From a virus, in the IMG/VR virus record IMGVR_UViG_3300017527_000830, positions 1 to 37,043 of that record: a stretch of 37,043 bases of DNA. One strand, written 5' to 3'. This document shows, one piece after another, positions 4,374-31,309 of this stretch. The position numbers and the translations under genes were made by a program. The notes below the pieces were generated by a model. That model worked only from the letters and a program-made list of their open reading frames with translations. It had not been told where the DNA came from and searched no databases. Positions within the stretch are counted from its first letter, which is position 1. Each line of letters starts with the position of its first letter.

Positions 4374-4375
4374 CC

Positions 4376-8842: not shown

Positions 8843-8862
8843 GTTGCTCCTCAGTTGGTTGA

Positions 8863-8886
8863 GGCCGGCGCGGTGGCCGGCCCTAC
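8863..8886 (-). repeat. GTAG-headed hairpin repeat A1
   Basis: The minus strand reads GTAGGGCCGGCCACCGCG then CCGGCC, with a 7-bp stem GGCCGGC/GCCGGCC. It fills the spacer between stop 8919 and start 8842. Five related copies lie between other genes (9348, 10585, 13368, 19415, 23298). Confidence 0.75.
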
Positions 8887-8918
8887 GCGCGAGTCGTGCA
8901 TTTCAGGCATTTTCCGTT

Positions 8919-9311
8919 TCAATTGCCGATAATAATAATAACCTTGGCGCCGGTGCTGTAAGTGCCGGCGTCAAAATCCAGGACCGGGCGCAGCTGGGTG
9001 CCGTTGAAATATTTTATACGGGGCTGGTTGATGGAGCAGGTGTCGGAATCAAATGCTTCCGGGCCGCTGTCGTCGCCTTCCTCGATGATGGCGCGGTCGT
9101 CGTCGGCGCCGGGCACGAACTGGATCGAACTGATGCGCAGCCCCGCCAGGTGGTTGGGGAAGTCGTCGTCCCAGCTCCAGTCCGAATCGATGGCGGTGAT
9201 TGAAATCACGTTGCCGGAAACGGTGACGGTGTTGACGGCCGGCGCCGGGGCGGCCCAGATGGCCATCAATAAACAGGTGATCAGTTCGGAAAACAGGATG
9301 CGTTTTTTCAT
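8919..9311 (-). CDS. Exported small protein, 130 aa
   Basis: MKKRILFSELITCLLMAIWA followed by APAPA is a signal peptide. The mature part NTVTVSGNVISITAIDSDW and later RISSIQFVPGADDDRAIIEE, then YFNGTQLRPVLDFDA, is acidic and beta-rich. I do not recognise the family; the order resembles small virion decoration or fibre-associated proteins apart from the signal peptide. Ribosome site AAAGGAG precedes ATG 9311. It is the first of three adjacent exported proteins. Confidence 0.6.
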   Translation of the reverse strand: MKKRILFSELITCLLMAIWAAPAPAVNTVTVSGNVISITAIDSDWSWDDDFPNHLAGLRISSIQFVPGADDDRAIIEEGDDSGPEAFDSDTCSINQPRIKYFNGTQLRPVLDFDAGTYSTGAKVIIIIGN

Positions 9312-9347
9312 TATAAACTCCTTTTAAAAAGGTTTATTGGTTGATTT

Positions 9348-9396
9348 GGCCGGCGCGGTGGCCGGCCCTGCATTTTTACTATGAGCTATGAGCTAT
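9348..9396 (-). repeat. Composite repeat A2+D (GTAG-type hairpin plus TATGAGC repeats)
   Basis: The hairpin GGCCGGCC-ACCG-CGCCGGCC (9348-9371, head GCAG) is joined to two AGCTCATAG copies (9377-9396). The repeat supplies the last codons (Asp-Ser-Ser) and the TAG stop of the upstream fibre gene. The same composite recurs at 10585, 19415 and 23298. Confidence 0.7.
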
Positions 9397-10555
9397 CCTT
9401 TCTCCGTTTCAGCCCTGCCGTGCGGATGTAGTCCGGCTGCGGGATTATTTTTTTGATGACGTTGACGATATCGCCGGGGCGCGCGTCGTACTGGTTTTCG
9501 AGGGCCACGGTCACCGGCTCGGTCGGCCAGGGCGGTTTGACGGACAGGTCCAGCTCGTAGTCCTCGTTGACCACCTGCAACAAGCTGCGATCGGGGACGG
9601 TTTCGTCGGGCGTGGCGATGCGGGCGCGGATTTCGGCCAGCAGGGCCGCATCCGGTGTGACCACCATGATGTCGTGTACGGCCGGGTCGTAGTCTAAAAA
9701 GGGATGGGGCACCAGCAGAGGTTTGGCGCCGTTGCCGAAACAGGGATGATCCGGACAGGCGGCAGCGGCGATAACGGTTCCATTGTTTTTTTGCAGCAGA
9801 AAAAAAAGCCAGAAAACCTCGCCGGAGCTTTGAATGTAGCGCATCTGGGCGTAAACGCTGCCGGATCCGGCCGCGACCGCCAGGGCGATAATCGTGGCGT
9901 AGCTGGAGTCCGCAAACGTGGTTGGAAGGAAGGCGACATCCATGTCGGTAACGCCGCCGCCCTGCTTGAACTGGGGAAAAAAGCCGTATTCTCCCGCGCT
10001 GGAAAAAGCAAGTTTCGTCAGGGTGCCCTGGGTGGTGGAGACCTCCTGAGTGGTGGATTTGAGCTTGGCCTGGGCCACGGCGCTGTCGGCCAGCTTGGCC
10101 TCTGTGATCGAGCCGTCGGCCAGCAGCGCCGATTTGGAGTTGACGCCGTCGTGATCGTGGCCGGCGGTGTTGGTCAGATCGTATAAGATGATATAGGTAT
10201 CGCCCGAGCGCACACCGTCCGAATATAAGTTGTCGCCGGTGCAGGCGATGCGGTCGGAGGCCGCCACGGTATCGTCGATGGTGTAGGTATTGCCGATGGC
10301 CGTGCCGGAGGTGATCAGCAGAGTGCGGCCGTTGTGCTCGTCGTCGGTCCAGCCGGCGGCGGTGTCGTAAAAATAGCCGTTGGAATCGTTGGAGGGATCC
10401 GAGGTGGCCGAGCCGGCCTCAACTTTTAAAAGCAACAGAAACAGGGCCTCGATGTTTTCACGGATCTGGCTGACGAGCTCCTCGGAGCCGGGGCTGTCGT
10501 AATCCGTTTCGGTGGCTAAAATGGTGCGCAGGGCCGTGACATCCCAGAATGACAT
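9386..10555 (-). CDS. Tail fibre / stalk protein, 389 aa
   Basis: MSFWDVTALRTILATETDYD opens a cytoplasmic, non-exported protein. The middle holds GHDHDGVNSK, a motif frequent in phage fibre stalks, followed by SALLADGSITEAKLADSAVA, a repeat style seen in fibre trimerisation regions. A beta-rich domain with VFWLFFLLQKNNGTVIAA follows, and the end PDYIRTAGLKRRKDSS is basic. AAGGAG before ATG 10555 is a good ribosome site. Its place after the hub-like protein fits a fibre. The last residues come from a repeat element. Confidence 0.65.
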   Translation of the reverse strand: MSFWDVTALRTILATETDYDSPGSEELVSQIRENIEALFLLLLKVEAGSATSDPSNDSNGYFYDTAAGWTDDEHNGRTLLITSGTAIGNTYTIDDTVAASDRIACTGDNLYSDGVRSGDTYIILYDLTNTAGHDHDGVNSKSALLADGSITEAKLADSAVAQAKLKSTTQEVSTTQGTLTKLAFSSAGEYGFFPQFKQGGGVTDMDVAFLPTTFADSSYATIIALAVAAGSGSVYAQMRYIQSSGEVFWLFFLLQKNNGTVIAAAACPDHPCFGNGAKPLLVPHPFLDYDPAVHDIMVVTPDAALLAEIRARIATPDETVPDRSLLQVVNEDYELDLSVKPPWPTEPVTVALENQYDARPGDIVNVIKKIIPQPDYIRTAGLKRRKDSS

Positions 10556-10584
10556 GCGGGGTTCTCCTTTTTTTGATTGATCGT

Positions 10585-10630
10585 GGCCGGCGCGGTGGCC
10601 GGCCCTATTATTAGCTATCAGCTATGGGCT
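10585..10630 (-). repeat. Composite repeat A3+D
   Basis: The hairpin GGGCCGGCCACCGCGCCGGC (10585-10608) with the divergent D part AGCTGATAGCTAATAATAG (10605-10624) sits between stop 10634 and the ribosome site of the fibre gene at 10555. Confidence 0.7.
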
Positions 10631-10633
10631 GCT

Positions 10634-13330
10634 TTATGGCATGATTTTAAAACCATATCCGGCGTCAGTTTCGGAAAATGTTATGAGGTTGTCGTCAAAA
10701 CAGTGTTTATCGGCCATTATCCACTCATCGCTGAGCACAACATCCGCCCAGCGCACCTCCTGAATCTCACCATCCCAGTGACCGATAGCGGTGAGTGCAT
10801 TATCCCCGATGCGGGCATCGGCACCGTCTTTGACGTTAACGTCATTGCATTTAGCGGCCGGCGATGAAAACTCCTGGCCGGACCCGCCGCCGTCTACAAA
10901 CCATTTGCTCTGGCTGGCGGTCTCGGACGCACCGACAATGCGGGCAAAGTGGGTCAGATGCCAGGCGTCGTCGTTTAACGGGTCATAGCTGCTTTGTAGT
11001 GTGAGTCCATAATTCCAGGTGTCGTCCATGAAACCGTAGAATTTATAATTTGTTGAATCCAGCACCAGCCATATATCGGCATAGCGTCCGCCGCCGGTGA
11101 CTTCCAAGCCCCGATTAAAAAATAAGGCCGGCTGCCCGCTGGTGGCGGCCGTCTTGTGCAGCATTTGGATTGTAAACAGGCCCTCGCCGGGGCTTAAATC
11201 ATCAGTTTCGGAGGTGATCTGGATATAGTCGTCGGAGCCGTCGAATTCCAGGGCCTTGCCGAATTTGCCGTCCACAACATCGGTGTCGGTCATGCTGCCC
11301 TGGGGCGTGCCGTGCTGGCCGTAGGAGGTGGAATCCTTGATGCACTCGCCGCCCACGCTGGGATCCTGGCTCAGATGCCAGACGGCCTTGAAATCGGATT
11401 TCCACACGTTTTTGGCCGGCGTGGAGGCGATGTCGCCCACATAGGTGGTGTTATCGGCGTAATTGGCGGAATAGTGCAGATACAGGATCGTGTCCTGGCC
11501 GGCCGAAATAGAGGGCACCTTGACCCACAGCTGGGCCGATTTGTTGGCGGTGTCCCAGCGCTCGATTTCCACATATAGCTGGGTGGTGCCGTCGGCGGCG
11601 GTGACTTTGATTTTTTTGCGGTTTGCGTCTGAAACCAGGATGTCAAAAATATCCGTGACATCATCGCTGCCGATGCCGGAGGCGGCGGTTAAATTGATCA
11701 GCACCGGATAGTCGGTCAGGTCGCCGTCGATTTTATCTTTATCGATCGTTATTTTGAAGGACCTTGCGGGAATGGCCCAGTATTCCTGTTGAGCGGCTGT
11801 CAGGCTGTTAAACTCGGCAAATGCTACAATCCAGCCGGCGGCCGGGGTGGCGCCGATCGAGCTTGAGACCGTGATCTGGCCGCCGGTAATATCGCTGATC
11901 GTCAGATCCGTGGCCTGGGCGTGCATGTTGGCGTCCATGATATCGATGACCCAGCCGACCGTATATTTGGCGGCGTCGGCCGAGCTGACGTTGAACACCG
12001 TGGTGGAAACTCCGCTGGTGACCGTCATGCTGGGCGAAATCTGCATGTACGCTCCGCGGTCGAAGCCGGTGTCCAGCAGATCGAATTTGACCTGGCCGTT
12101 TTTCCAGTCCACCGTGCGGTTGATGATCTCCATGTTGCGGGCCGAAAGGCCCCGGCTGCCGGCCTCCAGGTCCGGCAGCAGGCCGTGGGTGACCGGCACG
12201 ATGTCGCCGGCTTCCGACAAAAAGCGGCTGAAAAATGTTTTGAGGCCCAATTTGATGGGCGGGATGGCGTAGCGGCCGAATATTTTGTTTTTGCGGCGCT
12301 CCAGCAGCCCGGCCGTGGAGCCGATCGTGGAGTGAATACCCTTGGTCTTGATCACAATGGGGTCTTTGCCCGGTCCGCGGTTATTCAGGCTGGCGGCCTG
12401 AATGTAAAAGTCCTGGGTGTCGAACTCATCGTCGACCTCGTCGTAGTCGTAATGGAACTCTACCTCGTTGATCAGGCCGTCCAGGTTGGCGCTCCAGGTG
12501 GGCAGGCCGATAATGTTATCCTCCGTAAAGCTCTGCGCATCGCTATCCGCCAGGGGCGGCTTGAAGGGTTTGAGGTTGAATTTGCCGTCGCCGTCGATGA
12601 CCGGGTACAGATTGAGGGGTTTGAATATTTCCTTTTCGAGCCAGTCCTTGGCCTTGATGCGCTCGTTGATCGTAAAAGACAGGTAATTGCTGGCGCCCGG
12701 AAACCAATCGTCGCGCACGGCCTCGATGGCGGCGATATTAATAAAATCGGTGTCGAGGCCCAGCCCGTTTTCTTCGACAAACCAGTCATAGTCGCCGTTG
12801 GTGCCGGCGCCGGTGGAGGTCAGCACGGCCAGCATGATATTGATGGCATTGCCGGATAGGCTGACGGTGGCATCCTCGGCCCCGCGGAAAACCTTGCGCT
12901 GCATCCATTTTTGCGGATCGGTGATCGAAAACTCGTAAGCCAGGCCGTCGGAGGTGAGCTTGAGGCCGGTGACCCAGCCCGTGAAAATGGTGATCAAATC
13001 AGTGTAGGCCATACCCAGGTAGCCGGCCTTGATCGTGGTTTTCATGCGATGGAAAAAATAATCGTCGGTGGCCAGCATGGCCGTGATTTCGTTGTCTACA
13101 TCCAGGATGACGGCCGTCACCCCGCCGATGGAAGCGCGGCCCTGCTCGGGCACCACTTTCTGGCTCAAACCGGAAATATTGACCAGGTATTTTTTGGTGG
13201 TCGGCGCCCCGGAAGCGGGCTCATGGTTGGCATAGGCATCCGTGCCGGACAGATCGAACTCCACCATGTAAAGCGGGGTCTTGGTGGCCAGGGCGTGCTT
13301 GGCGTCAAAATTGGCGTTGGTGGTCAGCAT
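10634..13330 (-). CDS. Tail hub-like protein fused to DUF2341 and LamG-type domains, 898 aa
   Basis: Residues 1 to about 430 (MLTTNANFDAKHALATKTPL, then LEKEIFKPLNLYPVIDGDG) resemble tail hub/baseplate proteins that start with a TPLYMVEF-type segment. From about 510 comes a DUF2341-like domain (ITIDKDKIDGDLTDYPVLI, later LYLHYSANYADN). From about 665 comes a LamG-type jellyroll (WHLSQDP, FDGSDDYIQI, DGEIQEVRWADVVLSDEWI). The last two domains bind glycans or act as spacers in other proteins. No Shine-Dalgarno is visible: a GTTTCAGG repeat ends six bases before ATG 13330. Probably hub and receptor-binding functions in one chain. Confidence 0.75.
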   Translation of the reverse strand: MLTTNANFDAKHALATKTPLYMVEFDLSGTDAYANHEPASGAPTTKKYLVNISGLSQKVVPEQGRASIGGVTAVILDVDNEITAMLATDDYFFHRMKTTIKAGYLGMAYTDLITIFTGWVTGLKLTSDGLAYEFSITDPQKWMQRKVFRGAEDATVSLSGNAINIMLAVLTSTGAGTNGDYDWFVEENGLGLDTDFINIAAIEAVRDDWFPGASNYLSFTINERIKAKDWLEKEIFKPLNLYPVIDGDGKFNLKPFKPPLADSDAQSFTEDNIIGLPTWSANLDGLINEVEFHYDYDEVDDEFDTQDFYIQAASLNNRGPGKDPIVIKTKGIHSTIGSTAGLLERRKNKIFGRYAIPPIKLGLKTFFSRFLSEAGDIVPVTHGLLPDLEAGSRGLSARNMEIINRTVDWKNGQVKFDLLDTGFDRGAYMQISPSMTVTSGVSTTVFNVSSADAAKYTVGWVIDIMDANMHAQATDLTISDITGGQITVSSSIGATPAAGWIVAFAEFNSLTAAQQEYWAIPARSFKITIDKDKIDGDLTDYPVLINLTAASGIGSDDVTDIFDILVSDANRKKIKVTAADGTTQLYVEIERWDTANKSAQLWVKVPSISAGQDTILYLHYSANYADNTTYVGDIASTPAKNVWKSDFKAVWHLSQDPSVGGECIKDSTSYGQHGTPQGSMTDTDVVDGKFGKALEFDGSDDYIQITSETDDLSPGEGLFTIQMLHKTAATSGQPALFFNRGLEVTGGGRYADIWLVLDSTNYKFYGFMDDTWNYGLTLQSSYDPLNDDAWHLTHFARIVGASETASQSKWFVDGGGSGQEFSSPAAKCNDVNVKDGADARIGDNALTAIGHWDGEIQEVRWADVVLSDEWIMADKHCFDDNLITFSETDAGYGFKIMP

Positions 13331-13335
13331 AAAAA

Positions 13336-13391
13336 GGGTTTCAGGTTTCAGGTTTCAGGTGTCAGCCGGTCGGCACGGTGGCCGATTCTAT
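13336..13391 (-). repeat. GTTTCAGG tandem repeats plus divergent hairpin A4
   Basis: GGTTTCA repeats (13337-13365) adjoin the hairpin ATCGGCCACCGTGCCGAC (13369-13391). In A4 the stem pairs TCGGC with GCCGA, so both arms changed together relative to the GGCCGG/CCGGCC consensus. It lies between the distal tail gene and the hub gene. Confidence 0.65.
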
Positions 13392-13963
13392 AACGCTTCT
13401 GCGAATTTGAACGTGTGCTTGTAATAACTGCCGGTTTTTCTGGGGTCGAATTCCTTGTCCAGGCTAATGACCTCCGGCCAGTAATCCAGGTGGCGGAAGG
13501 TGTCGGCGGCGGCGTAGGCGAATATCAGGTTGCCCACGGCGGTCACACTCACACCGGCTGAAATGGAGGCGATCTCCATGTGCTCGAAGGCGTCGTCGCC
13601 GGCCTGTTTGATCAAACAATCGTCGCCGACTGAAAAAGCGGCCGTGGCCGTCAGCGGGATAACTTTCTGATCAGCGGCGGCGGCGTCGTCCAGGGTGGTG
13701 TTGCCCACCGCGCCCGAATCCATGGCAAAGCTCCAGAGCTTGCCCTGGCGGGCCCATGAAAACCAGGCCAGCAGGCTGCGGTAGATGGCCTCGGTGAAAT
13801 AGGCCGTGAATTGCAGCTCCTGGATGCCGTGAAAATTGATCTGCTCGATCTTGCCGGATCCGGCCCGGTTTTGCTTGCGGTCCTGGGTGTAGGCCGGGCG
13901 CAGGCCTTCCTCGGCCACCAACAAATCAATATTATTGCTGTCGTATGTAATCCGGATAGCCAT
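13388..13963 (-). CDS. Distal-tail-type minor tail protein, 191 aa
   Basis: The protein MAIRITYDSNNIDLLVAEEG contains ELQFTAYFTEAIYRSLLAWFSWARQGKLW and ends GSYYKHTFKFAEAL. No catalytic motif is seen. Position between tape measure and hub, its size, and the beta-rich make-up match distal tail/tail-tip proteins of siphoviruses. It starts at 13963 with AGAGGTG upstream, and the start overlaps the tape-measure stop (TGATG). Confidence 0.6.
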   Translation of the reverse strand: MAIRITYDSNNIDLLVAEEGLRPAYTQDRKQNRAGSGKIEQINFHGIQELQFTAYFTEAIYRSLLAWFSWARQGKLWSFAMDSGAVGNTTLDDAAAADQKVIPLTATAAFSVGDDCLIKQAGDDAFEHMEIASISAGVSVTAVGNLIFAYAAADTFRHLDYWPEVISLDKEFDPRKTGSYYKHTFKFAEAL

Positions 13964-15801
13964 CAGTACACCTCTTGGGCCACTTTGGCGTTGGAGGCCA
14001 TCAGCATGACCTCGCGGTCTTGCACGGCATCACTGAGGCGCTCGGCCAGCTCCTCAATGTAGGCTTCGTCCTCGATGCGCACGTCGCCTTCGAAATAAAT
14101 ATTTACCTGGGGAGGCGTCTGGTCGCCGGTCATGGCGCTGGGAGTGGTGGCCGGGGTGACACCCGCGGACCCGGTCGTAGCGGCCGGCAGTCCGCCGCCT
14201 CCGCCGGCGGTCCCGCCGCCGATGGAAGTGGCCATGATGGCGGCCACCTGGGCCAGGCCCATAGCCAGGGTAGCGGCCGCCACCGGAATGGTATAGGGGG
14301 CGCCCGGCGGGGCGCTCAAGGCCTGGTTGAAGGCCGAAAAGGCGGCGATGGTAGCCTTGGCGGCCTCGATGCCCTGGGCAATCCTGAATAAGGCCTTGCC
14401 TTTTTTGCCCATAAAGGCCTGCATGGCGGTCATGGTAGTGGCGGTGGCCTGCAGCCACAGCTGGGTGGCCTGCGTTTTCATTTCCTGGGTGCGCTGCTCT
14501 ATTTCCAGCTCGCGTTTTTTCTGCTCCTCGTAAAGCGCAAGATATCCCTCATGCGCGTCTATTAAAGACTGATCATAAGCATTGGCCTCCTCCAGATCCT
14601 GGGCACGCTGCTCGCGCCGTATTTCAGCTTCCAGCTGCAGGCGCTCGCGAATCAGCTCGAGCTCGTACTGGTACATGGCTTCGTGGCCTTGGATGATGGC
14701 GGCGTCGTATTCAGTAGCCTCGTCGATGAGCATCTGGTGCAGTTGGCGTTGTTCGCGCAGCACATCCTTGGAATCGCCGGGACCTGCGCCGGCCTCGCCG
14801 CCGATGCCGGCCGGTATCTGAAATCCTGCGCCGCCGGCGCCGGCCTCGCCGTAATTGAGCTTCATCAGGGTTTTGATGAACTCATCGGCGTTTTCTCTGG
14901 CGAATTTGAACTGCTCGGCCATGGCCTTGGTTTTTTCGTGGATGACGTCGAAACCCAGCTTTTCGGCCACCCACTCGCCGCCCGGCAGCTTGAGCTGCCA
15001 TTCCTGGATTTTGGCGATAGCGCTGAAAAACGTCTCCAAAATCAAATTGAAATTATGAGAAAAAGTCGTGAACACAATTAAAATAACCCGCAGGATCTCG
15101 TTGAGCGCCCGGCCGATAAACACCATCGCATCTTTACTAAGTGCATCCATGGTCTGGAAATGCTCGGAGGCGGTCTTGGCGCTTTGGCCCATGCGGGCCA
15201 TGAGCTCCTCGCCGGCTTTGACGGTGGCGTTCAAAAAGGCCTGGCGCTTTTCGACATCCGTCAGCTCGCCGGCGGCCTTGCCCAGGATGGCCGCGTACTG
15301 CTCGTTGGCCTTGCCCACCTGGACGATAATGCCCAGGTTGTCCAGGATCATGCGCGACTGGCGGCCCACGGCCAGGGAAATGTCGTCGAAGGCCTTGGAG
15401 ACGCTCTGCCCGGTCATGCGGGCCGTGGTGCGCGCGATCTCCATGAGCTTGTGCAACTTGTCGGGCGTGATGCCCATCATCATGGCCGTGCCGGCCTTGT
15501 TGACCAGGGTCATGGTGTCCATGGCGTGTCCGGAGGCCTGCTTGAGCTTCATAACAATGAAATCCGCGTTGGCGCCGTAGGAAGCCGCCAGGTTGTTAAA
15601 CGCCGCCCGTTCCTGGTCGGCGCGGGCGGCCATCTGCATCAGGTCCCAGGCCTTGGTAACCGTATACAAGGCGCCGGCCACCTGCAGCCAGGAAGTGCGG
15701 ATGGCGGTGGTGGCCTTTTTGGTGACCAGCTGGGCATCGCGGGCGGCGCGCTCGTACTTGGAGCTGGTGCCGGTTATTTCTATGCGGACTTCGTTGGCCA
15801 T
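13963..15801 (-). CDS. Tape measure protein, 612 aa
   Basis: A long, mainly helical protein: MANEVRIEITGTSSKYERAA at the start, ITPDKLHKLMEIARTTARMT and LSLAVGR-type helices in the tape-measure N-domain, hydrophobic segment ILRVILIVFTTFSH (about 237-250), coiled coil LELIRERLQLEAEIRREQRA (about 385-405), and a Gly/Ala-rich C-terminus. It follows the tail chaperone pair and precedes the distal tail protein, the standard order. By analogy with the lambda tape measure its length should set tail length; at 612 residues the tail should be shorter than that of lambda. Confidence 0.85.
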   Translation of the reverse strand: MANEVRIEITGTSSKYERAARDAQLVTKKATTAIRTSWLQVAGALYTVTKAWDLMQMAARADQERAAFNNLAASYGANADFIVMKLKQASGHAMDTMTLVNKAGTAMMMGITPDKLHKLMEIARTTARMTGQSVSKAFDDISLAVGRQSRMILDNLGIIVQVGKANEQYAAILGKAAGELTDVEKRQAFLNATVKAGEELMARMGQSAKTASEHFQTMDALSKDAMVFIGRALNEILRVILIVFTTFSHNFNLILETFFSAIAKIQEWQLKLPGGEWVAEKLGFDVIHEKTKAMAEQFKFARENADEFIKTLMKLNYGEAGAGGAGFQIPAGIGGEAGAGPGDSKDVLREQRQLHQMLIDEATEYDAAIIQGHEAMYQYELELIRERLQLEAEIRREQRAQDLEEANAYDQSLIDAHEGYLALYEEQKKRELEIEQRTQEMKTQATQLWLQATATTMTAMQAFMGKKGKALFRIAQGIEAAKATIAAFSAFNQALSAPPGAPYTIPVAAATLAMGLAQVAAIMATSIGGGTAGGGGGLPAATTGSAGVTPATTPSAMTGDQTPPQVNIYFEGDVRIEDEAYIEELAERLSDAVQDREVMLMASNAKVAQEVY

Positions 15802-15818
15802 CGTCTCGCTCCGTTCGA

Positions 15819-15887
15819 GTTGGAGGTTTGAGGTTTGAGGTTTGAGGCAAAAAAAAGCCTCCAGCCTCTAACCTCAAACCTCTAACT
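15819..15887. repeat. GAGGTTT inverted heptad repeat B1
   Basis: On the plus strand, three GAGGTTT units and GAGGC are followed by eight A and then GCCTC and the reverse-complement heptads (AACCTCAAACCTC). The two arms can pair over about 30 bp with an A/T loop. It fills the spacer between the tail chaperone and tape measure genes. Confidence 0.7.
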
Positions 15888-16132: not shown

Positions 16133-16144
16133 GCGGCTTTGAAC

Positions 16145-16180
16145 CTCATCGGTCAGACCGATGAGCTTGCGGATAAAAAA
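16145..16180 (-). promoter_or_regulatory. Programmed -1 ribosomal frameshift signal
   Basis: The zero-frame codons are GAT TTT TTA, so the heptamer T-TTT-TTA (16174-16180) has the X-XXY-YYZ form. Eight bases later comes a perfect 9-bp stem CTCATCGGT / ACCGATGAG with loop CTG (16145-16165). The zero-frame TGA (16153-16155) lies inside the hairpin. A -1 slip continues in the T-like frame. Confidence 0.85.
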
Positions 16181-16701
16181 TCCTCCCGCTCCTCGTTGAG
16201 CTGGGTTAAGGCCTGCACGTCCTCATAGATCTGGTTGACATGGTTCCAGGTGATTCCGTTGGATTGCAGCACGGCCTTTTTTTCTTCAAAGCCTTCGGCC
16301 GGCAGGCCGGCGACGCTTTTAAACTCGATGTCCAGGGCAAAGACGGTGACCTGCCAGGTGACGTTCTGGGTGTGCGCTTCCAGGGCATCGACATATTTTT
16401 CATCGGTGGTGTCGAACACCTGCAGCATCTGGTCATGCGGCAGGCCGGCGGCGCGGCCGGCGGGCGAGTTTTTCTTGATCACCTCGCGCGTGGCCGGCGG
16501 GCGCGGGGCCTTGTTGGAAAGCTCCTGTTGAAATTCGTGCACGCCGGTGGACTTGATCGGCAGGCGTACAATTTTGGATTTGCCGCCCTTGGTGATCTTG
16601 ACCGCCGAGTAGCCGTGGCTCTCGAACAGGGCGCCGCCCTCCACGAGTTCGGAGATGGTTTCGATGGGCGGCGCTTCTAGTTTTTGTTGTTTTTGTTCCA
16701 T
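16153..16701 (-). CDS. Tail assembly chaperone, upstream frame (G-like)
   Basis: 182 residues from MEQKQQKLEAPPIETISELV to REDFLSASSSV. It is acidic and helical, without enzyme motifs. Position between tail tube and tape measure, the slippery heptamer four codons after EERED, and the overlapping -1 frame identify it as the G-like tail chaperone. An upstream in-frame GTG at 16710 is possible; I prefer ATG 16701. The terminated form ends six residues after the slip site, the fused form adds about 95 residues. Confidence 0.8.
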   Translation of the reverse strand: MEQKQQKLEAPPIETISELVEGGALFESHGYSAVKITKGGKSKIVRLPIKSTGVHEFQQELSNKAPRPPATREVIKKNSPAGRAAGLPHDQMLQVFDTTDEKYVDALEAHTQNVTWQVTVFALDIEFKSVAGLPAEGFEEKKAVLQSNGITWNHVNQIYEDVQALTQLNEEREDFLSASSSV

Positions 16702-16715
16702 GGATCTCACTTCAA

Positions 16716-16781
16716 GTTGGAGGTTTGAGGTTGGAGGTTGGAGGCAAAGGATTTTTTGTCCTCAAACCTCCAACCTCCAAC
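16716..16781. repeat. GAGGTTT/GGAGGTT inverted heptad repeat B2
   Basis: Plus-strand GGAGGTTTGAGGTTGG units and their reverse complement CCTCAAACCTCCAACC flank a T-rich loop. It lies upstream of the tail chaperone start. About 85 bp of GC-rich spacer (16790-16870) with GCCCGCC/GGCGGGC arms follows and holds no gene. Confidence 0.7.
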
Positions 16782-16875
16782 ATTTTTTTGAGTCCCGCCC
16801 GCCCCGCCTGGTTCCAAGCCCCGGTTTTCTAATCATTATCGGCGGACCCCAGCAGCCAAGGCGGGCAGGGATGTT

Positions 16876-17478
16876 TTACGCCTCAATACTGGTGCCGGCC
16901 GTAAAGGCGGTGTCGCGCGTTTTGGTGCCGTACCATTTACCGGCCAGCGATATGGTGACGCCGTCCTCGGCCTCGGCTACGGACTGCTCATCCAGCGGGA
17001 AATGCACCTCGTTGTAGTGCCAGACGATGTCCGTGGAGCCGTCCAGCTTGTATTCGATGTTGCAGGTCAGCTTGGTGCCGTCGGCAAAGGGCGGGTTGTT
17101 GTTGGCGCCGTCGCGCTGGCTGTCCTCTTTGGTGGAGGTCAGGTTGTTGGCATTGACCGTGCCGGAGGACACCGGGGGGCTGGCACCGTCGCCGTTGGCC
17201 ATCTGCTCCAGCCAGTCCAGCAGGTAGCCGCTGATGGTTGCGTCAGTGAGCAGGGCCGAAAACGAGATGTCCAGCGGCTCCATGATTTTATCGTCGCCGC
17301 CCTCGATGTAGTGGGCGTCGGAGGTCATCTGGTTGCGGTCCAGCACCAGCTGCTCCTCGGTTTTGGGCTGGCCCAGGGGCGCCGAAAAATCGCCGGCGTC
17401 GAAATCGATCTCCAGGTAATAAGGCGTGGCGGTGCCGTCGTATAGTCTGAGCTTGCCTTTACGGTTGGTGAATTTCAT
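16876..17478 (-). CDS. Tail tube protein, short paralog, 200 aa
   Basis: The protein opens MKFTNRKGKLRLYDG, then DFSAPLGQPKTEEQLVLDRN, HYIEGGDDKIMEPLDISFSA and closes with EVHFPLDEQSVAEAEDGVTI. The same blocks in the same order occur in the 346-residue neighbour, so the two are paralogs. Size, place directly before the tail chaperones and the beta-rich pattern fit a siphovirus tail tube monomer. This one is a compact tube domain without insertion and is probably the main tube protein. Confidence 0.7.
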   Translation of the reverse strand: MKFTNRKGKLRLYDGTATPYYLEIDFDAGDFSAPLGQPKTEEQLVLDRNQMTSDAHYIEGGDDKIMEPLDISFSALLTDATISGYLLDWLEQMANGDGASPPVSSGTVNANNLTSTKEDSQRDGANNNPPFADGTKLTCNIEYKLDGSTDIVWHYNEVHFPLDEQSVAEAEDGVTISLAGKWYGTKTRDTAFTAGTSIEA

Positions 17479-17494
17479 GGCGTTTCCTCGTTTA

Positions 17495-17555
17495 TGGTTC
17501 AGGGTTTAAAGGTTCAGGGTTAAAGGATATCGCGGCGAGACGCCGCTCCCACAAT
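17495..17555 (-). repeat. REP element C2 with GGTTCAGGG repeats
   Basis: Minus strand GTGGGAGCGGCGTCTCGCCG followed by CGATATCCTTTAACCC and CTGAACC units. The hairpin stem GCGGCG/CGCCGC is kept while its loop differs from C1 and C3. It lies between the two tail tube paralogs. Confidence 0.7.
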
Positions 17556-17638
17556 TTAAAATCGCGGATTCCAGGTTTCAAAATTATTAGTTATCTTGCA
17601 GATCCGGATCCGCTGGCGGAAGGCCATGCGCCTATCTT

Positions 17639-18679
17639 TTAGTATCTCACCCCGAAAGCCGTAATGCGCTCGATAAGACCGTAGCAGCCGCCGGCGCAGG
17701 AAAGCGTCACGCCGTCCTCGGCTTCGGCCAGGGACTGCTCGTCTTCCGGGAAAAAGGTCTCGTAATAGGCCCAGCCGTGGGCTGCGCTGGTGCCCGTGAA
17801 CAGGATCTGGATGTTGACCGCTTTTTTGGTGCTTTCGGCAAAGGCCGGGTTGTAATTGGTGCCGTCGTTTTTAGTGGTGCCCTTGGCGGTCACACCCGCG
17901 CCGGTCCAGTAAGTGGAGGCCGGCGTGCCGCAGGCAAGTGCGGCTAAAATAGCAACCTTGTTGTAAACGTCGTCCAGCAGGGCCGCAAAGGACAGCTCCA
18001 GCGGTTCGTAAATTTTGCCGTGGCCGCCTTCGATATAGTGCATGTGGGCGCCGGCCTGGTTGCGGTTCAAGATCAGCTGCTCCTCCACCTTGGCGCGGCC
18101 CAGGGGGCCCGAAAAATCCATGGCCGCAAAGGCCACCTCGAAATACTGGCCGTCCACCGGGCAAAGAACATCGCCGTCCGGATCCGTGGAGGGGCTGGTG
18201 GTGGCCGCCAGCTCGATGTAGTATTTGTCACTGTCCAGGTTGGCGTTGAAGGCGTTGGCGCCCGTGGCCCAGTCGGCCGGAATCTTGAAACCGATATAGC
18301 CGTCGGCCGCAAAGCAGTCGCCGCCCGAAGCCGTGCCGTCGGAAACGCCGGCCAAGGAGGTGTTGAAATCGGTGCCGTTGAAGTATTTTGCGATCAGGGC
18401 GCCGGAGGCCACGGCGTAATCCGCGCCGCCGCCTTTTAAAAAGCGCACCAGGGCGAACTTGGAGGTGGAGCCGATGTAAACCTTGTCGTTATCGTCGGTC
18501 AAAAAATTACTGGCGATATTGGCATCGTCGGCCTCCACGTCGGTGGTGATATTGGCCCAGGTGGCCACGCCGTCGAACTTGACCACATCGATGGTGATGC
18601 CGCTGAATATGCCGGCGCCGTGCAGGATCTGGGAGCTGTCGTATATTCGCAGGGCGCCTTGTTTGCCGGTTAGTTTCAT
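17639..18679 (-). CDS. Tail tube paralog with inserted domain, 346 aa
   Basis: Ends match the 200-residue neighbour: MKLTGKQGALRIYD at the start and AAMDFSGPLGRAKVEEQLIL, HYIEGGHGKIYEPLELSF, FFPEDEQSLAEAEDGVTL later. Between residues about 20 and 185 it carries an extra beta-rich domain with DDNDKVYIGSTSKFALVRFL, AKYFNGTDF and KIPADWATG, a pattern of surface decoration domains. It may be a minor tube subunit, a tail-terminal ring or a decorated form. Upstream spacer holds the B3 repeat; the ribosome site is weak. Confidence 0.65.
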   Translation of the reverse strand: MKLTGKQGALRIYDSSQILHGAGIFSGITIDVVKFDGVATWANITTDVEADDANIASNFLTDDNDKVYIGSTSKFALVRFLKGGGADYAVASGALIAKYFNGTDFNTSLAGVSDGTASGGDCFAADGYIGFKIPADWATGANAFNANLDSDKYYIELAATTSPSTDPDGDVLCPVDGQYFEVAFAAMDFSGPLGRAKVEEQLILNRNQAGAHMHYIEGGHGKIYEPLELSFAALLDDVYNKVAILAALACGTPASTYWTGAGVTAKGTTKNDGTNYNPAFAESTKKAVNIQILFTGTSAAHGWAYYETFFPEDEQSLAEAEDGVTLSCAGGCYGLIERITAFGVRY

Positions 18680-18701
18680 GGGTGTCTCACTTTGTTCGCG
18701 T

Positions 18702-18763
18702 TAGAGGTTGGAAGTTTGAGGTCCGAGGCTCCTTTTTTACCTCCAACCTCAAAGCTCTGACCT
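18702..18763. repeat. GAGGTTT inverted heptad repeat B3
   Basis: Plus strand TTAGAGGTTGGAAGTTTGAG pairs with CTCCAACCTCAAAGCTC across a CTCCTTTTTTAC loop. It occupies the spacer between the gp10-like protein and the long tail tube paralog. Confidence 0.65.
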
Positions 18764-18770
18764 AATGCGG

Positions 18771-19403
18771 CTAAAAGCCCAGCCTGGGTTTTTGTTTGCT
18801 GAAAAATTTCTGGAAAAAGCGCTTTGCGTAGTAGTTGCGCATCTCGCGGCGGTCGCGCTTGAATACCGGGCCGATCATGGGCCGCGCCGGCAGATCCATG
18901 GAGCGGGTGCTCTTTTTGATCGGCACGCCGCGGGCGGCCATAAAGCGGCGCATGCGTTTGGTTACCGGGCGACGCTTGCCGAACTCGTGCAGGCGTGCCA
19001 TGGCCTGGGCGGTCATGCTCATTTGTTTTCGAAAGCGGGCTTTCTGGCGCGAGGTGCCCTTGAGCGAATAGCGCCGGCCGGTTTTCTGGCGCTGGCGCTT
19101 GGTGAGTATGCGCGTGGGAAAAAATCCGATGCGCACATACTGCACGCCTTTGGAGGTGCCGTATTTAAAGCGCACTAGCTTGGCCAGGTAAAAAAGCGGG
19201 CTCTTTTTGCCGGAGCGCATCTTCTTGGTGCCCGCCGATAACGCCTGCCAGCCACGGCCGCCGGTTTCGATAAACCTGCGGATCTCCTTGCGCCAGTGGC
19301 CGCCGGTCATCTTGAGGGCCTCGGAGTTGGCCCAGCGGGCGCGTTTGGGCGAGGCCTTTAGAAATTTCTGGACCTGGGTGTCGTGTATTTTGATTTCGAG
19401 CAT
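18771..19403 (-). CDS. Tail completion / gp10-like joining protein, 210 aa, very basic
   Basis: MLEIKIHDTQVQKFLKASPK then NSEALKMTGGHWRKEIRRFI and a long Arg/Lys-rich C-terminal half ending FFSKQKPRLGF. Proteins of the virion morphogenesis / HK97 gp10 kind sit here, between the head-tail adaptor and the tube, and share a helical N-terminus. The unusually basic C-terminus could contact DNA. No Shine-Dalgarno precedes ATG 19403; repeat A5 ends 12 bases upstream. Confidence 0.55.
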   Translation of the reverse strand: MLEIKIHDTQVQKFLKASPKRARWANSEALKMTGGHWRKEIRRFIETGGRGWQALSAGTKKMRSGKKSPLFYLAKLVRFKYGTSKGVQYVRIGFFPTRILTKRQRQKTGRRYSLKGTSRQKARFRKQMSMTAQAMARLHEFGKRRPVTKRMRRFMAARGVPIKKSTRSMDLPARPMIGPVFKRDRREMRNYYAKRFFQKFFSKQKPRLGF

Positions 19404-19414
19404 GATATTATTGC

Positions 19415-19456
19415 GGCCGGTACGGTGGCCGGCCCTACTATCAGCTATGAGCTAAG
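19415..19456 (-). repeat. Composite repeat A5+D
   Basis: The minus strand GTAGGGCCGGCCACCGTACC then GGCC keeps the GTAG head and GGCCGG/CCGGCC stem. Upstream of it AGCTCATAGCTGATA (19441-19455) supplies the end of the FII-like gene (Leu-Ser-TAG). Confidence 0.7.
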
Positions 19457-19778
19457 ATAGCTCGCGTTCCAGGGCGATCTCCAGGACGTTGTCGTCCTGG
19501 TAGACCACGCCGTCGACGTCCATGTACCAGTCCTCGGAGCTGATGGTATATTTGTCGCCGCGCTGCGGGCTGGCAACGTCCACTGTCTTGACCGTGATAA
19601 TGCAGGCGGCGTTCTGCTCGCCGCGCACGTAAGGCTCCTGCAGGGGGGCGTCGCGTACCACGATGGCGGAAATGGTGGCGGGATCGCCGCCGTCCGGCGT
19701 GTAGGTGATACTGTCGGCAAATTCGTCGGTGTTGAAAAATGCCGCCAGGTCCGAGGTCATCTGGGTTTTTAAGGTCAT
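19452..19778 (-). CDS. FII-like head-tail adaptor, 108 aa
   Basis: MTLKTQMTSDLAAFFNTDEF, then ITYTPDGG, and a beta-rich C-terminus with VDGVVYQDDNVLEIALE. This matches the family of small head-tail attachment proteins related to lambda gpFII, which often start with a TDLAxFFNxDEFA segment. It lies between capsid genes and tube genes, as expected. No Shine-Dalgarno is seen; repeat C3 ends at 19787, next to ATG 19778. Confidence 0.65.
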   Translation of the reverse strand: MTLKTQMTSDLAAFFNTDEFADSITYTPDGGDPATISAIVVRDAPLQEPYVRGEQNAACIITVKTVDVASPQRGDKYTISSEDWYMDVDGVVYQDDNVLEIALERELS

Positions 19779-19786
19779 GAAAAATA

Positions 19787-19843
19787 GGTTCAGGGTTCAG
19801 GGTTCAGGGTTAAAAAAATCGCGGCGGGACGCCGCTCCCACAA
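19787..19843 (-). repeat. REP element C3 with GGTTCAG repeats
   Basis: Minus strand GTGGGAGCGGCGTCCCGCCG then CGATTTTTTTAACCC and three CTGAACC units. It has the GTGG head and GCGGCG-loop-CGCCGC stem of REP elements, and is nearly identical to C1. Confidence 0.75.
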
Positions 19844-19857
19844 CTTAAAATTGATCC

Positions 19858-20331
19858 TCATTGCGTCGGCTCCTTCAAGCGCATTTCGTTTTTCAGCTGC
19901 GGCAGGCGCTTTTGCAGGGCGGCGGCCTCATCGGTTTTGCCCAGGATGCCGCACACATAAATGAGGTTGCCGGCCAGATCGCGCGAGGGGTGCAGCGCAA
20001 AGGCCTTTTTCAGGTACGTGTAGCTCAGCGGCCAGGCCCGCAGGGCGCCGGCGGCGGTGGAGGCGTTGATCCAGCCCGAGGCCCGCTCCGGATGCAGAGC
20101 GATGGCCTGGCGCGCATAGGCCAGGGAAAAGGCCCATTGCGCGGCGCGGCCGAATTGGGTGGAGGCGTTGACCTGGGCCCGGAAGCTGGCCGGGGCCTTC
20201 AGGGCCGCGTCGTGCTCCAGGGAATGCACGTTGTAATGGTGGCGAAACGAGTCATACACCCCGATGGCCACAAAGCCCACCAGCAGCAGCGGAGCGGCCC
20301 AGTCCAACAATGTCAGTTGGCGTCGCTCCAT
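19858..20331 (-). CDS. Membrane-anchored TPR-like protein, 157 aa
   Basis: An N-terminal anchor LLDWAAPLLLVGFVAIGVY is followed by tetratricopeptide-like helices: AYARQAIALHPERASGWINA and YLKKAFALHPSRDLAGNL, each with the ALHP-type turn. TPR repeats mediate protein contacts; in this topology they would face the periplasm. Such a protein is not part of any standard virion set. It overlaps the exported protein gene upstream by 19 bp, so the two are co-translated. Role unknown; an effect on the host envelope is inference. Confidence 0.6.
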   Translation of the reverse strand: MERRQLTLLDWAAPLLLVGFVAIGVYDSFRHHYNVHSLEHDAALKAPASFRAQVNASTQFGRAAQWAFSLAYARQAIALHPERASGWINASTAAGALRAWPLSYTYLKKAFALHPSRDLAGNLIYVCGILGKTDEAAALQKRLPQLKNEMRLKEPTQ

Positions 20332-20978
20332 GTGCCGTATGCCTGGCCGACGGCCACAAAGTTGGTGGTGTTGATGGCCATCAGCCGGATGGTGTTGCCG
20401 GCCGTGCCGGTATTCTGGATCTTGTCGCCGGCCGCATTGGTCAGCGCCAGGATCAGGTCGGCGGCGTCCACATCGATGTTGACCGTGTTGGCGTCCACCA
20501 CCGCGAACTTGAACTCGCGCCCGATCACGGTGGAGGCCTCCGGCATGGTAAAGGTGATCGCCGCGCCGGCGCCGGCGTTGGTCACCAGGGCATCGGCATC
20601 CGTCAATAGTATGGTGGCGTCTGTGGTTTTATTCGTCAGCGTGCAGACAAAGACACCGTTGTGATCCACCGTGCCGGCGATCGAGGTCGAGGCGCCGGAG
20701 ATGGCCGGGCTGGCAAAGGTGCCGGTGGTGACCGTGGGCGCGGTCAGGGTTTTATTGGTCAGCGTGTCGGTGGTGGCCAGGCCCACGGCGGTGTCGTTGG
20801 CCGTCAGCGTGGGGTGCGCCAGGTAGTAGCTGGACTTGGCGCCGGCGCTGTGGCCGTACCAGTACGGAAAGGCGATGCCGCCGGGCCGCTGGCTGACGGT
20901 AATGGCGGCAAAGGCCAGGCTAACGAGCAGCAACAGCAGGCCGATGATCAATATGGGTTTGGGTATGCGAAAGCGCAT
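20313..20978 (-). CDS. Exported fibre/decoration-like protein, 221 aa
   Basis: From ATG 20978 (GGAGG seven bases upstream) the protein begins RFRIPKPILIIGLLLLLVSL and AFA, a signal peptide. The mature part has TLTNKTLTAPTVTTGTF, a motif common in phage fibres, and a C-terminal beta domain with ANTVNIDVDAADLILAL and AAGDKIQNTGTAGNTIRLM, typical of virion appendage proteins. Domain content says virion, signal peptide says export. It stands between the major capsid gene and the joining proteins. Confidence 0.6.
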   Translation of the reverse strand: MRFRIPKPILIIGLLLLLVSLAFAAITVSQRPGGIAFPYWYGHSAGAKSSYYLAHPTLTANDTAVGLATTDTLTNKTLTAPTVTTGTFASPAISGASTSIAGTVDHNGVFVCTLTNKTTDATILLTDADALVTNAGAGAAITFTMPEASTVIGREFKFAVVDANTVNIDVDAADLILALTNAAGDKIQNTGTAGNTIRLMAINTTNFVAVGQAYGTWSDAN

Positions 20979-21005
20979 GATATATCCTCCATGAATCAGG
21001 GGGTG

Positions 21006-21058
21006 ACAGGTTTGAGGTTTGAGGCAAAAAAAGCCTCTAACCTTCAACCTCCAACCTT
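21006..21058. repeat. GAGGTTT inverted heptad repeat B4
   Basis: Plus strand AGGTTTGAGGTTTGAGGC, seven A, GCCTC and reverse-complement heptads. The hairpin has a GAGGC/GCCTC core and an A/T loop as in B1. It fills the spacer after the capsid gene. Confidence 0.7.
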
Positions 21059-21061
21059 TCG

Positions 21062-22279
21062 TTAATCATCCTTGGGTGCCGTGGTGGCGGACAGGTTCTG
21101 GATCACGTTCACATAATCCACCGCGCCTACTTCCGTGTCCCAGGCGATGCGGCCCTGAAATGCGATGCGGCTGTCCAGATAGGCCTGGGTGTCCATGCCC
21201 AGGGTGACGTATTCGAAGCGCAGCTTCCACTTGCGGCGGTACTGGCGCTGAAACGCCCCCAGGTACCAGGCCGAGGTGGACAAATCATCCAGCTTGGGCG
21301 AGCTCTTGATGCGGTCCGGCGGCAGGGACCAGCGGCCGCTGGAGCCGTAATTGGACATCTCGTTTTCCACGCCTGGCACGTACTGCGAATTGAATACCTT
21401 GAGCACGGCGCCTAAAATGGCGTTGGGCGCCAAAAGTTTAACCTCGCTCCAGGGTATGGAGATACGCTTGCCGCGGTTGTTTTTCATGGCGGCCAGCACG
21501 TTGCGGGCGGCATCCAGATCGGTATCGTCTACAAAGGCGTTGTTCTGCACGCGGGTGCCCGAAGGGGCGCGGGTGCCCGGGGTGTCGGCCGTGGCCGAAA
21601 AAAGGGCCGTGCCGGTGCCGGCCGGGCGGTAGACATAAGGCTCGGCGGGCGAGGCCGCGCAGCCGTCGTGATCGGTTACGCGCTTGAGGGTCTGCTCTTC
21701 GACCCAGTCGGAGGCGATCAGGCCCAGGGCGTTGACGCGCTCGGTGATATTGGCCACTTCGTTTTCCTCGATGGCTTCGGCCGAGATCGTCAATTTGCGG
21801 CCGTTGCGCTTGTGGCGGATCTCCACGGATTCCTCGTCGGTGCCGATTTCGGGAAAGTCCTTGGTTTCCTTGACCTCCTCGACGTTTTTGTCCAGGTTGT
21901 GGATGGCCGCGATGGTGGTGACCTTTTTGTTGTCGTCGATCTCGGTCACCAGGTCCTGGCCGATGGTGGGCACCGCCAGGTAAGCGTCGTTGATGGCCTT
22001 GATCACGGTCGTGCCGGTCAAAATAGGGAAAGCCGAGGCCATGATGGCCCGCTGGGCGCCGGCAATTTCCATGGTGATCGGGACCTTGACATCGGCCAGG
22101 GCCGAATACATGGCCTTGAACTGAAAATTGGCCAGGTTAATTTTGCCGGCCTCGATCTGGGCTTCGCATTTGCGCATGAAAGCCTCCGGATCGTTTTGGG
22201 CCAGGCTGCGAATGGCGTAGACATCCGGCACGCTGCGGTGGCCGTAGGTAATGCCGGAGCTGAAAAGTTTCTGGTTCAT
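21062..22279 (-). CDS. Major capsid protein, HK97 fold, 405 aa
   Basis: Protein starts MNQKLFSSGITYGHRSVPDV. An N-terminal helical arm (1-100) is followed by PTIGQDLVTEIDDNKKVTTI and VEIRHKRNGRKLTISAEAIE (the P-domain and spine region), and a C-terminal IAFQGRIAWDTEVGAVDYVN, the FRxRxDxxVxxxxA-like strand found at the end of HK97-fold capsid proteins. It follows the protease/scaffold and decoration genes, as expected. GGAGG lies eight bases before ATG 22279. The N-terminal arm may be trimmed by the upstream protease. Confidence 0.8.
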   Translation of the reverse strand: MNQKLFSSGITYGHRSVPDVYAIRSLAQNDPEAFMRKCEAQIEAGKINLANFQFKAMYSALADVKVPITMEIAGAQRAIMASAFPILTGTTVIKAINDAYLAVPTIGQDLVTEIDDNKKVTTIAAIHNLDKNVEEVKETKDFPEIGTDEESVEIRHKRNGRKLTISAEAIEENEVANITERVNALGLIASDWVEEQTLKRVTDHDGCAASPAEPYVYRPAGTGTALFSATADTPGTRAPSGTRVQNNAFVDDTDLDAARNVLAAMKNNRGKRISIPWSEVKLLAPNAILGAVLKVFNSQYVPGVENEMSNYGSSGRWSLPPDRIKSSPKLDDLSTSAWYLGAFQRQYRRKWKLRFEYVTLGMDTQAYLDSRIAFQGRIAWDTEVGAVDYVNVIQNLSATTAPKDD

Positions 22280-22345
22280 TTTAATTCCTCCCGGTTATCG
22301 GTTCGCGGTAAATTTTCGGTTGTCATTTCGCTGTAAAGTGTTTGG

Positions 22346-22408
22346 AGCGGGCCATGCGGTGAAGCATCAAAAGCGCTGGTCACGCTTTCGCCGGCGGGGA
22401 GCCCGCTT
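22346..22408. repeat. Long inverted repeat between capsid and decoration genes
   Basis: Plus strand AGCGGGC (22347-22353) and GCCCGCT (22402-22408) close a structured spacer containing AAAGCG/CGCTTT. It may be a divergent member of the spacer hairpins or a weak attenuator. No T-run follows on the minus strand. Confidence 0.4.
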
Positions 22409-22413
22409 ATTTT

Positions 22414-23253
22414 TTAACCCTCGACGGTGATATCTGCATCGGCGCCGGACAAAGATACGCTGGCCAGCCAGTCGGTGCCGTCCCAGACCAGTTTTGCGAA
22501 ATCGCCGATATCTGTCATGCTGATATATTTTCCGGCCGCCTGGGCCGCGCCCTTGATATAAATCTGGGCGGTGTCGGGCTTTGGATCGATCACCAACACC
22601 TGGTCAGCCCCAACCAGCAGGTCGACCCACCAGCCCACCGGGACCACGCCGTTAGGCATCGTAACCGTAGAGCTACCTGCATCGCCCTTGCTACATATCA
22701 GGGCACCGCAATCTTCCAGGGTCGGCGCATAGTCATCGGTGATGATGAGCACTTTCTGAAGGTTGGCCGGAATCATGTTTTTCTCAAAATACGAAAATGC
22801 CGGATTAAAGGCCACCTCCGCGTAAGAAATGGAACCCAAAGTGGTGCCTTCCTCGGGGTAGTTTTGAATTCCGACTACATGCGCCACCCCGTCGCCGTCG
22901 GCGTCATAGGTCAGCTTCTGGGCGTCCGAGGCCGTCAATTTGAGGTTGTCGCCCAGCACGCACTGGCGGGCGGCGGCCAGTTGGAACTCGAACACGTCGT
23001 ATTTGCGGATGGCCATGAATTCCATATAACGCGCCAGGCCGGCGGCTTTTTGCTCCTCATTGGCGATCGCCAGGGAATAGGCCTTGTCGGCTTCGGCATC
23101 GACCGGCTGAAAATAGGTGGCTGTTTCGTTAAACGTGCAGATCTCACCGCGCTTGATTTCCTGGGTGGATCCGGCTTGCACCAGCCCCATGATAATCAGA
23201 GGCTTGGGGGCTCCCATCAGGTTGCGAATCCAGGGGTATTTGTTAACTGCCAT
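22414..23253 (-). CDS. Capsid decoration-type protein, 279 aa
   Basis: MAVNKYPWIRNLMGAPKPLI then GSTQEIKRGEICTFNETATY and the segment LAAARQCVLGDNLKLTASDA recall decoration/stabilising head proteins, where an early beta domain binds the capsid surface. The C-terminal part (TITDDYAPTLEDCG-like region, VPVGWWVDLLVGADQVLVI) is beta-rich. Lambda keeps gpD at the same position, between scaffold and capsid protein, but this protein is much longer. GGAGG precedes ATG 23253. Assigned by order and style, not by a specific motif. Confidence 0.55.
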   Translation of the reverse strand: MAVNKYPWIRNLMGAPKPLIIMGLVQAGSTQEIKRGEICTFNETATYFQPVDAEADKAYSLAIANEEQKAAGLARYMEFMAIRKYDVFEFQLAAARQCVLGDNLKLTASDAQKLTYDADGDGVAHVVGIQNYPEEGTTLGSISYAEVAFNPAFSYFEKNMIPANLQKVLIITDDYAPTLEDCGALICSKGDAGSSTVTMPNGVVPVGWWVDLLVGADQVLVIDPKPDTAQIYIKGAAQAAGKYISMTDIGDFAKLVWDGTDWLASVSLSGADADITVEG

Positions 23254-23297
23254 TTTTAGGTCCTCCGTTGAGTGGTTGATTGGTTAATTGCTGTTTT

Positions 23298-23340
23298 GAC
23301 GGGCACGGCGGCCCGCTCTACATTTTTACTATGAGCTGGC
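23298..23340 (-). repeat. Composite repeat A6+D, divergent stem
   Basis: Minus strand GTAGAGCGGGCCGCCGTGCC then CGTC: the stem is CGGGC/GCCCG instead of GGCCGG/CCGGCC, changed on both arms. The D part AGCTCATAG (23327-23336) supplies Ser-Ser-TAG at the end of the protease/scaffold gene, as at 9386. Confidence 0.65.
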
Positions 23341-27109: not shown

Positions 27110-27189
27110 GGGTTTTTAGCGTGTTGGCGGCGGCGGGGTGAAGCCGGGGATAAAATATGGGAATAACGAGGTAAAAAAAGGGGAATAAA

Positions 27190-27224: not shown

Positions 27225-27225
27225 A

Positions 27226-31284: not shown

Positions 31285-31309
31285 CGGAAGCAAAACAAAA
31301 ATTTAAAAA

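Follow-up and report, generated by a model that had tools for sequence, protein, structure and literature searches.

The question raised by the virus record IMGVR_UViG_3300017527_000830 of the IMG/VR database is whether repeats of a bacterial chromosome have colonised a phage. This linear 37 kb record, analysed here over its whole length (37,043 nt, referred to as the window), encodes on its minus strand a terminase large subunit, a ParB-like protein, a lambda-type portal, a capsid/protease, connectors, a tape measure, tail proteins and a holin, and six hairpins headed by GTAG or a close variant lie along its virion operon. A preliminary description had likened them to the GTAG-type repetitive extragenic palindromic (REP) elements moved by REP-associated tyrosine transposases (RAYTs) and had offered two explanations, colonisation by host repeats or a role in the polycistronic RNA of the phage. 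Colonisation by host-type repeats is the better of the two, because the family (REP-A) is abundant in bacterial chromosomes, its stem covaries, a RAYT gene is flanked by it, and it is missing from prophages with related terminases. Phages are usually considered nearly REP-free, and here the same repeats occur in several unrelated ones.

A covariance model (CM R1) was built from 30 chromosomal REP-A copies only, with no window sequence included, and the window was searched with filters off. The top six matches were exactly the six hairpins already described on the minus strand, and the seventh had an E-value of 0.56. Regarding the GTAG head that had been attributed to them, it is exact in the copies at 8863, 19415 and 23298 but a one-base variant in the other three (GCAG at 9348, ATAG at 10585 and at the copy formerly placed at 13369); the hairpin is present in 6/6 copies and frayed in two. 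The ATAG head of copy 4 is the stop codon of gene 13388-13963. As had been reported, AGCTCATAG heptamers adjoin four copies (9348, 10585, 19415, 23298); at only three of these does the heptamer provide the stop codon of the upstream gene (gene ends 9386, 19452 and 23329), whereas the gene that ends at 10634 has a stop of its own. None of the four strong window copies has an opposite-strand REP partner within 110 nt, i.e., they are singlets.

The REP-A hairpin consists of a GTAG head, a 7-bp stem and a short loop. A generic pattern for it was found in 27/389 genomes of the class of the Desulfobacteraceae metagenome-assembled genome (MAG) S10.Bin129 (Desulfobacteria), with 358 (G084), 121 (G321), 93 (G001) and 40 (G003) copies, compared with one match in total over the 389 genomes for the reversed pattern used as a control. 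The chromosomal search proposed in the preliminary description was thus positive for this class, as distinct from the window's own host. A Desulfobacteria host is likely for the window phage, because relatives of its terminase occur as prophages in 47/389 genomes of the class (best identity ~60%), and the phage probably infects sulfate-reducing bacteria. A scan of ~85,000 species genomes for REP-A yielded nine stretches, five of which are Desulfobacterota chromosomal contigs (S10.Bin129 three times, Olavius symbionts Delta 1 and Delta 3), whereas one is phage DNA (L013, a 3 kb contig deposited under Desulfotignum). The remaining three, two from Streptomyces and one from a 67% GC 'Deltaproteobacteria' genome, are single copies in GC-rich DNA and were set aside as probably due to chance.

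Covariation of the stem, whose absence from a wider alignment would by the preliminary description have counted against the idea, is present: 4/7 pairs show both-sided change (29 cells versus 7.8 in shuffled alignments), and the covariation score is 0.406, versus 0.115 in shuffles and less than 0.1 for slid structures. Within the window, both stem arms were said to have changed together in the copies at 13369 and 23298. Indeed, both arms are altered at one pair (T-A, G-C), but further out the pairing is broken or of the wobble type; the changes match standing chromosomal subtypes (TC/GA and CG/CG), so that the two copies look like separate arrivals and not like covariation inside the phage. 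Their decayed state suggests that REPs have been resident in this phage lineage for some time.

A RAYT gene, which the preliminary description had proposed to look for in the host, was found in the class genome G001, where a 170-aa Y1 transposase is encoded on contig C27, at 1423-1932 of L026, between two inverted pairs of REP-A. The gene passes the NCBIfam model REP_Tyr_transpos NF047646 (107 bits, cut-off 80), and its protein matches the TnpA-REP structure PDB 4ER8 (E 5e-11); judged by these matches and its setting, it is a bona fide RAYT (TnpA-REP) cognate to REP-A. The identity of the six window hairpins as host-type GTAG REPs is secure. The other two Y1 genes of G001 (L019, L022) have their own flanking hairpin families, GTAGGGGAGGGGTTTATCCCCTCCC and GTAGAAGCGGCTTCCAGCCGCTT.

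In G084, a Mu-like prophage occupies contig C5 from ~56 kb onwards (contig end at 90.9 kb), with genes for a repressor, transposase, transposition protein, terminase, portal, protease, head, tape measure and tail. These 35 kb contain ten strong REP-A copies compared with ~2.9 expected from the genome average of ~82 per Mb (Poisson P 7e-4), nine of them between called open reading frames (ORFs). The ten are nearly identical to one another; the CG/CG subtype accounts for 9/10, versus 114/358 genome-wide (binomial P 1.6e-4), and an opposite-strand REP within 110 nt accompanies 0/10, versus 29/30 sampled chromosomal CG/CG copies (Fisher P 1.3e-8), with the caveat that a partner was present for 13/29 sampled chromosomal copies of other genomes. 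That the copies of a phage tend to be of one subtype points either to this subtype having been copied in repeatedly or to its having multiplied inside the phage.

Strong matches to the covariance model were obtained in four other phage contigs: L013 (JAGYOW010000119.1; five copies in 3 kb, 0/5 with an opposite-strand partner within 110 nt; head-tail adaptor gene), L046 (six copies, as doublets; terminase, portal and major head protein), L047 (two singlets; tape measure) and L048 (one copy). No match to window proteins was found in these four contigs by tblastn at E 1e-3. One L013 protein contains the in-frame translation of two REPs (AG[TA]VAGPTS). All REP-A copies found in the Desulfotignum MAG sit on this contig, and the phage may therefore have a different host. 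Among viral contigs, the near-exact REP-A pattern gave no match and generic patterns gave 3 and 4 contigs, while the L046 doublet yielded only chance-level matches in INPHARED phages and PLSDB plasmids. As a control, an E. coli REP pattern was found in 3 IMG/VR contigs and the corresponding query matched 15/50,697 phage records, several of which are chromosome-sized Salmonella records, so that REPs are rare in coliphages. A search of 262 kb of DNA downstream of sister-prophage terminases detected no REP-A, and a search for Y1 transposases was negative in the window and in 11 further virus records with repeats.

We consider it probable that host RAYTs copy single GTAG-type REPs in trans into the phage genome, where the copies persist in operon spacers and later decay. 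Desulfobacteria hosts would multiply the REP-A family with cognate RAYT (Y1 HUH) transposases, and such a RAYT, acting in trans on single-stranded DNA during lysogeny or replication, would insert REP units into the phage. Insertions that break no gene would survive, whether they fall into one of the virion operon's short spacers or into the end of a gene while keeping its frame, in which case the stop codon may come to be provided by a REP head or a heptamer; the copies would then stay and decay. A second family, REP-B, and 7-base arrays, both common in such chromosomes, may have arrived in the spacers by a broadly similar route. What we infer here is the agent (a RAYT in trans), the identity of the host, the step of insertion and the near-neutrality of the copies in the phage; insertion is drawn from established REP/RAYT work, in which single-stranded REP is the substrate of TnpA-REP and cleavage takes place at neighbouring dinucleotides (PMC8266576).

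Several points weigh against this proposal. REP insertion by a RAYT was not directly observed in this analysis, and neither the window phage's own host nor the RAYT of that host was found. The two decayed copies (13367, 23298) score weakly (E-values in Table 1). Contig C5 of G084 has no strong REP between 1 and 56 kb, so that the link of its prophage to the REP-rich chromosome is not certain; the tetranucleotide profile of C5 at 36-56 kb fits G084 (r 0.94), no better than G001. The sister prophages are diverged (terminase 40 to 60% identity, portal ~27%), and a comparison of empty sites is therefore not feasible. Furthermore, 9/10 window REPs are oriented alike with respect to transcription, which could reflect selection for a role in RNA, although orientation is mixed in the G084 prophage.

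If there were such a role, the hairpins, recruited from host REPs and now selected, would be working parts of the polycistronic mRNA that set the ratio of virion proteins, as 3' exonuclease barriers, weak terminators or translation dampers beside stop codons. Enterobacterial REPs have effects of this kind on RNA. Apart from their shared orientation, the window hairpins are placed between a stop codon and a ribosome site, in several cases no more than ~15 nt from the stop, and five heptamer hairpins fold far better than shuffles. A selected role is nevertheless unlikely, given that terminase-related sister prophages do without the REPs, that stems have decayed in two window copies, that the G084 prophage shows both orientations and that some copies in other phages are located inside genes. 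A sense-strand T run follows none of the REP-A hairpins in the window, and a reading of REP-A as an intrinsic terminator was dropped on this ground; two REP-B copies in the window do resemble one (sense GC hairpin plus T run).

The sharing of one subtype within a phage (4/6 copies in the window, 5/5 in L013, 9/10 in the G084 prophage) would also be expected if REPs had been acquired by recombination with chromosomal DNA or with REP-bearing phages, later copies arising by recombination or slippage within the phage, and two close direct tandems (L013 288/320; L252 9339/9369) fit this origin as well. However, the copies are spread over many separate spacers, and by eye those of the G084 prophage share no flank beyond the 24-nt unit, as recombination would leave; we regard this origin as quite unlikely. 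That the hairpins are chance palindromes of a GC-rich phage is hardly credible: GGCCGGCC-like words are indeed common in the window (99 with at most one mismatch versus 43 expected), but a model built from outside places exactly these six first, and strict-pattern counts in chromosomes are far above the reversed-pattern control. For the four strong copies, chance is refuted.

Among known systems, the closest are the GTAG REP/RAYT systems called REPtrons (Di Nocera 2013, PMC3733652; PMC8266576), with which REP-A shares the GTAG head, the 7-bp stem, the short loop, hundreds of copies in some chromosomes and, in the bacterial genome G001, a cognate Y1 transposase flanked by inverted REP pairs. 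Unlike in REPtrons, the REPs here are carried by phage genomes that have no RAYT themselves; no word starting with 'phage' or 'Desulfo' occurs in the text of the 2013 survey (PMC3733652). The chromosomal copies of G084 are inverted doublets (29/30), as in REPINs (Bertels and Rainey 2011, PMC3116915), whereas the copies of the window, of L013 and L047 and of the G084 prophage are singlets, which lack the inverted-doublet form by which REPINs are defined, and doublets occur in L046. That work holds that doublets replicate and regards singlets as defunct remnants (PMC3116915), and replicative horizontal transfer of REPINs was deemed unlikely (PMC8049555). In Pseudomonas, where the same class of element was mapped against mobile elements, the latter lie in REP-free regions (PMC3390384), whereas the REP density of the phage regions described here equals or exceeds that of REP-rich chromosomes. 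Colonisation of phages by REPs was not reported in any paper found in the open-licence literature, subscription journals being mostly outside the search.

The prior view is that REPs are bound to the chromosome and vertically inherited, that mobile DNA lies in REP deserts and that single REPs are dead remnants; phages with dense, near-identical single REPs run counter to these three statements. Because related phages are REP-free, REP-bearing ones form a natural assay for REP movement, and phages are a possible route for REP transfer between hosts. More tentatively, single REP units instead of REPIN doublets may be the mobile form in phages, with RAYTs repeatedly copying one subtype and phages carrying REPs and heptamer arrays between hosts; if this somewhat doubtful extension is true, it supplies a horizontal route that REPIN theory thought unlikely (PMC8049555). 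The repeats may also serve as a signature that links unassigned phage contigs to REP-rich Desulfobacterota hosts.

Table 1. REP copies and heptamer arrays of the window (covariance model scores refer to CM R1).
Feature	Position	Strand	Remarks
REP-A copy 1, GTAGGGCCGGCCACCGCGCCGGCC	8863-8886	-	Head GTAG; spacer 8843-8918; 41.6 bits, E 6.8e-8; same family in Desulfobacteria chromosomes
REP-A copy 2	9348-9371	-	Head GCAG; spacer 9312-9385; 37.0 bits, E 8e-7
REP-A copy 3	10585-10608	-	Head ATAG; spacer 10556-10633; 33.9 bits, E 4e-6
REP-A copy 4, decayed, TC/GA subtype	13367-13390	-	Head ATAG; model match at 13370, 18.9 bits, E 0.013; subtype present in chromosomes
REP-A copy 5	19415-19438	-	Head GTAG; 35.6 bits, E 2e-6
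REP-A copy 6, decayed, CG/CG subtype	23298-23321	-	Head GTAG; 15.9 bits, E 0.067
REP-B, GGGAGCGGCGTCCCCGCCGCGAT	4402-4427	-	Followed by AACCCTG heptamers, 4375-4395
REP-B, GTGGGAGCGGCGTCTCGCCGCGAT	17530-17553	-	With AACCCTG-type repeats
REP-B, GTGGGAGCGGCGTCCCGCCGCGAT	19819-19842	-	With AACCCTG heptamers, 19787-19811
REP-B, reversed	26496-26520	+	In frame within 80-aa ORF 26451-26693, peptide IAAGTPLSQLE
GCTCATA heptamer array	9379-9396	-	Stop codon of gene 9386-10555
GCTRATA heptamers adjoining REP-A copy 3	10609-10625	-	Not the stop codon (gene ends at 10634)
CCTGAAA heptamer array	13337-13365	-	Downstream of REP-A copy 4
GCTSATA heptamers	19438-19454	-	Stop of gene 19452-19778
GCTCATAG unit adjoining REP-A copy 6		-	Stop of gene 23329-24447
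Inverted pair, CCTCAAA heptamer arrays	15819-15886	-	Hairpin -42.2 kcal/mol, z -8.7
Inverted pair, heptamer arrays	16716-16781	-	z -6.4
Inverted pair, degenerate heptamer arrays	18696-18765	-	z -4.0
Inverted pair, heptamer arrays	21008-21057	-	z -3.5
Inverted pair, CCTGACA heptamer arrays	26134-26209	-	Just upstream of likely portal start (~26120); z -6.2

The six hairpins are only part of the repeats in the window, most of which the preliminary description had missed, namely the second REP(-like) family and heptamer arrays of other sequence (Table 1). REP-B, with the pattern GTGGGAGCGGCGTCC(C)CGCCGCGAT, has four copies in the virion operon and occurs in 55/389 Desulfobacteria genomes with up to 174 copies (control zero). 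It was also found in 25 stretches of viral contigs, at least eight of these stretches being in one 63.5 kb contig, and several copies are inside ORFs. In that contig (IMGVR_UViG_3300030613_000001; L254/L255), two lie in a 4131-aa ORF, antisense and seemingly in frame; the location of REP-B inside ORFs recalls the Rickettsia palindromic elements.

At least 12 tandem arrays of period 7 are present in the window, compared with a mean of 0.17 and a maximum of one in 30 dinucleotide shuffles; arrays of periods 5, 6 and 8 to 11 number 0 to 5 each. The five inverted heptamer pairs fold strongly as RNA (z -3.5 to -8.7). A REP or heptamer repeat is found in 14/16 spacers of at least 40 nt in the virion/lysis operon (3317 to 28977), the repeat-free ones being 22280-22413 and 27109-27225; spacer 18680-18770 was counted as repeat-bearing from separate repeat and folding analyses. 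One heptamer pattern matches 60 viral stretches, which contain 254 period-7 arrays versus at most 52 of any other period tested, the stretches having been chosen for carrying one. Five viral contigs (L215, L217, L180, L098 and L113), which carry terminase, portal, head or internal virion genes, have heptamer arrays of several sequences in many gene spacers, up to 19 in 13 kb. With a generic GTRG-hairpin finder, contigs with heptamers showed no excess (43 versus 51 in the control), so that heptamer phages as a rule do not carry REPs. In chromosomes, heptamers are only slightly more frequent beside REPs (4 arrays in 9.4 kb of REP neighbourhood versus 34 in 162 kb), and these cases are too few to support a joint unit of heptamer and REP. 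Intergenic 7-base arrays, many just upstream of start codons and sometimes as inverted pairs, are also known from Beggiatoaceae (TAACTGA, PMC4679880) and Xanthomonas (GGGAATC, PMC4692102); different from these, several heptamers occur here in one phage operon, some adjoining REPs, and also in many virus contigs.

No match to Rfam and no whole tRNA (ARAGORN) was found in the window. A sequence resembling a tRNA 3' end (GTGAGTTCAAATCTCACCGTGCCTACCA) is located at 3247-3289 on the minus strand, the remainder of the tRNA being missing; it is probably an attachment (att) site, which suggests a temperate phage. Near the terminase region, iteron-like direct repeats of 11 bases around GAAGTAAAA are present at 31291-31337 and 31623-31698. 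Two adjacent genes have a 164-nt stretch in common (17249-17412 and 17976-18139, 71% identity) and are likely a tandem duplication.

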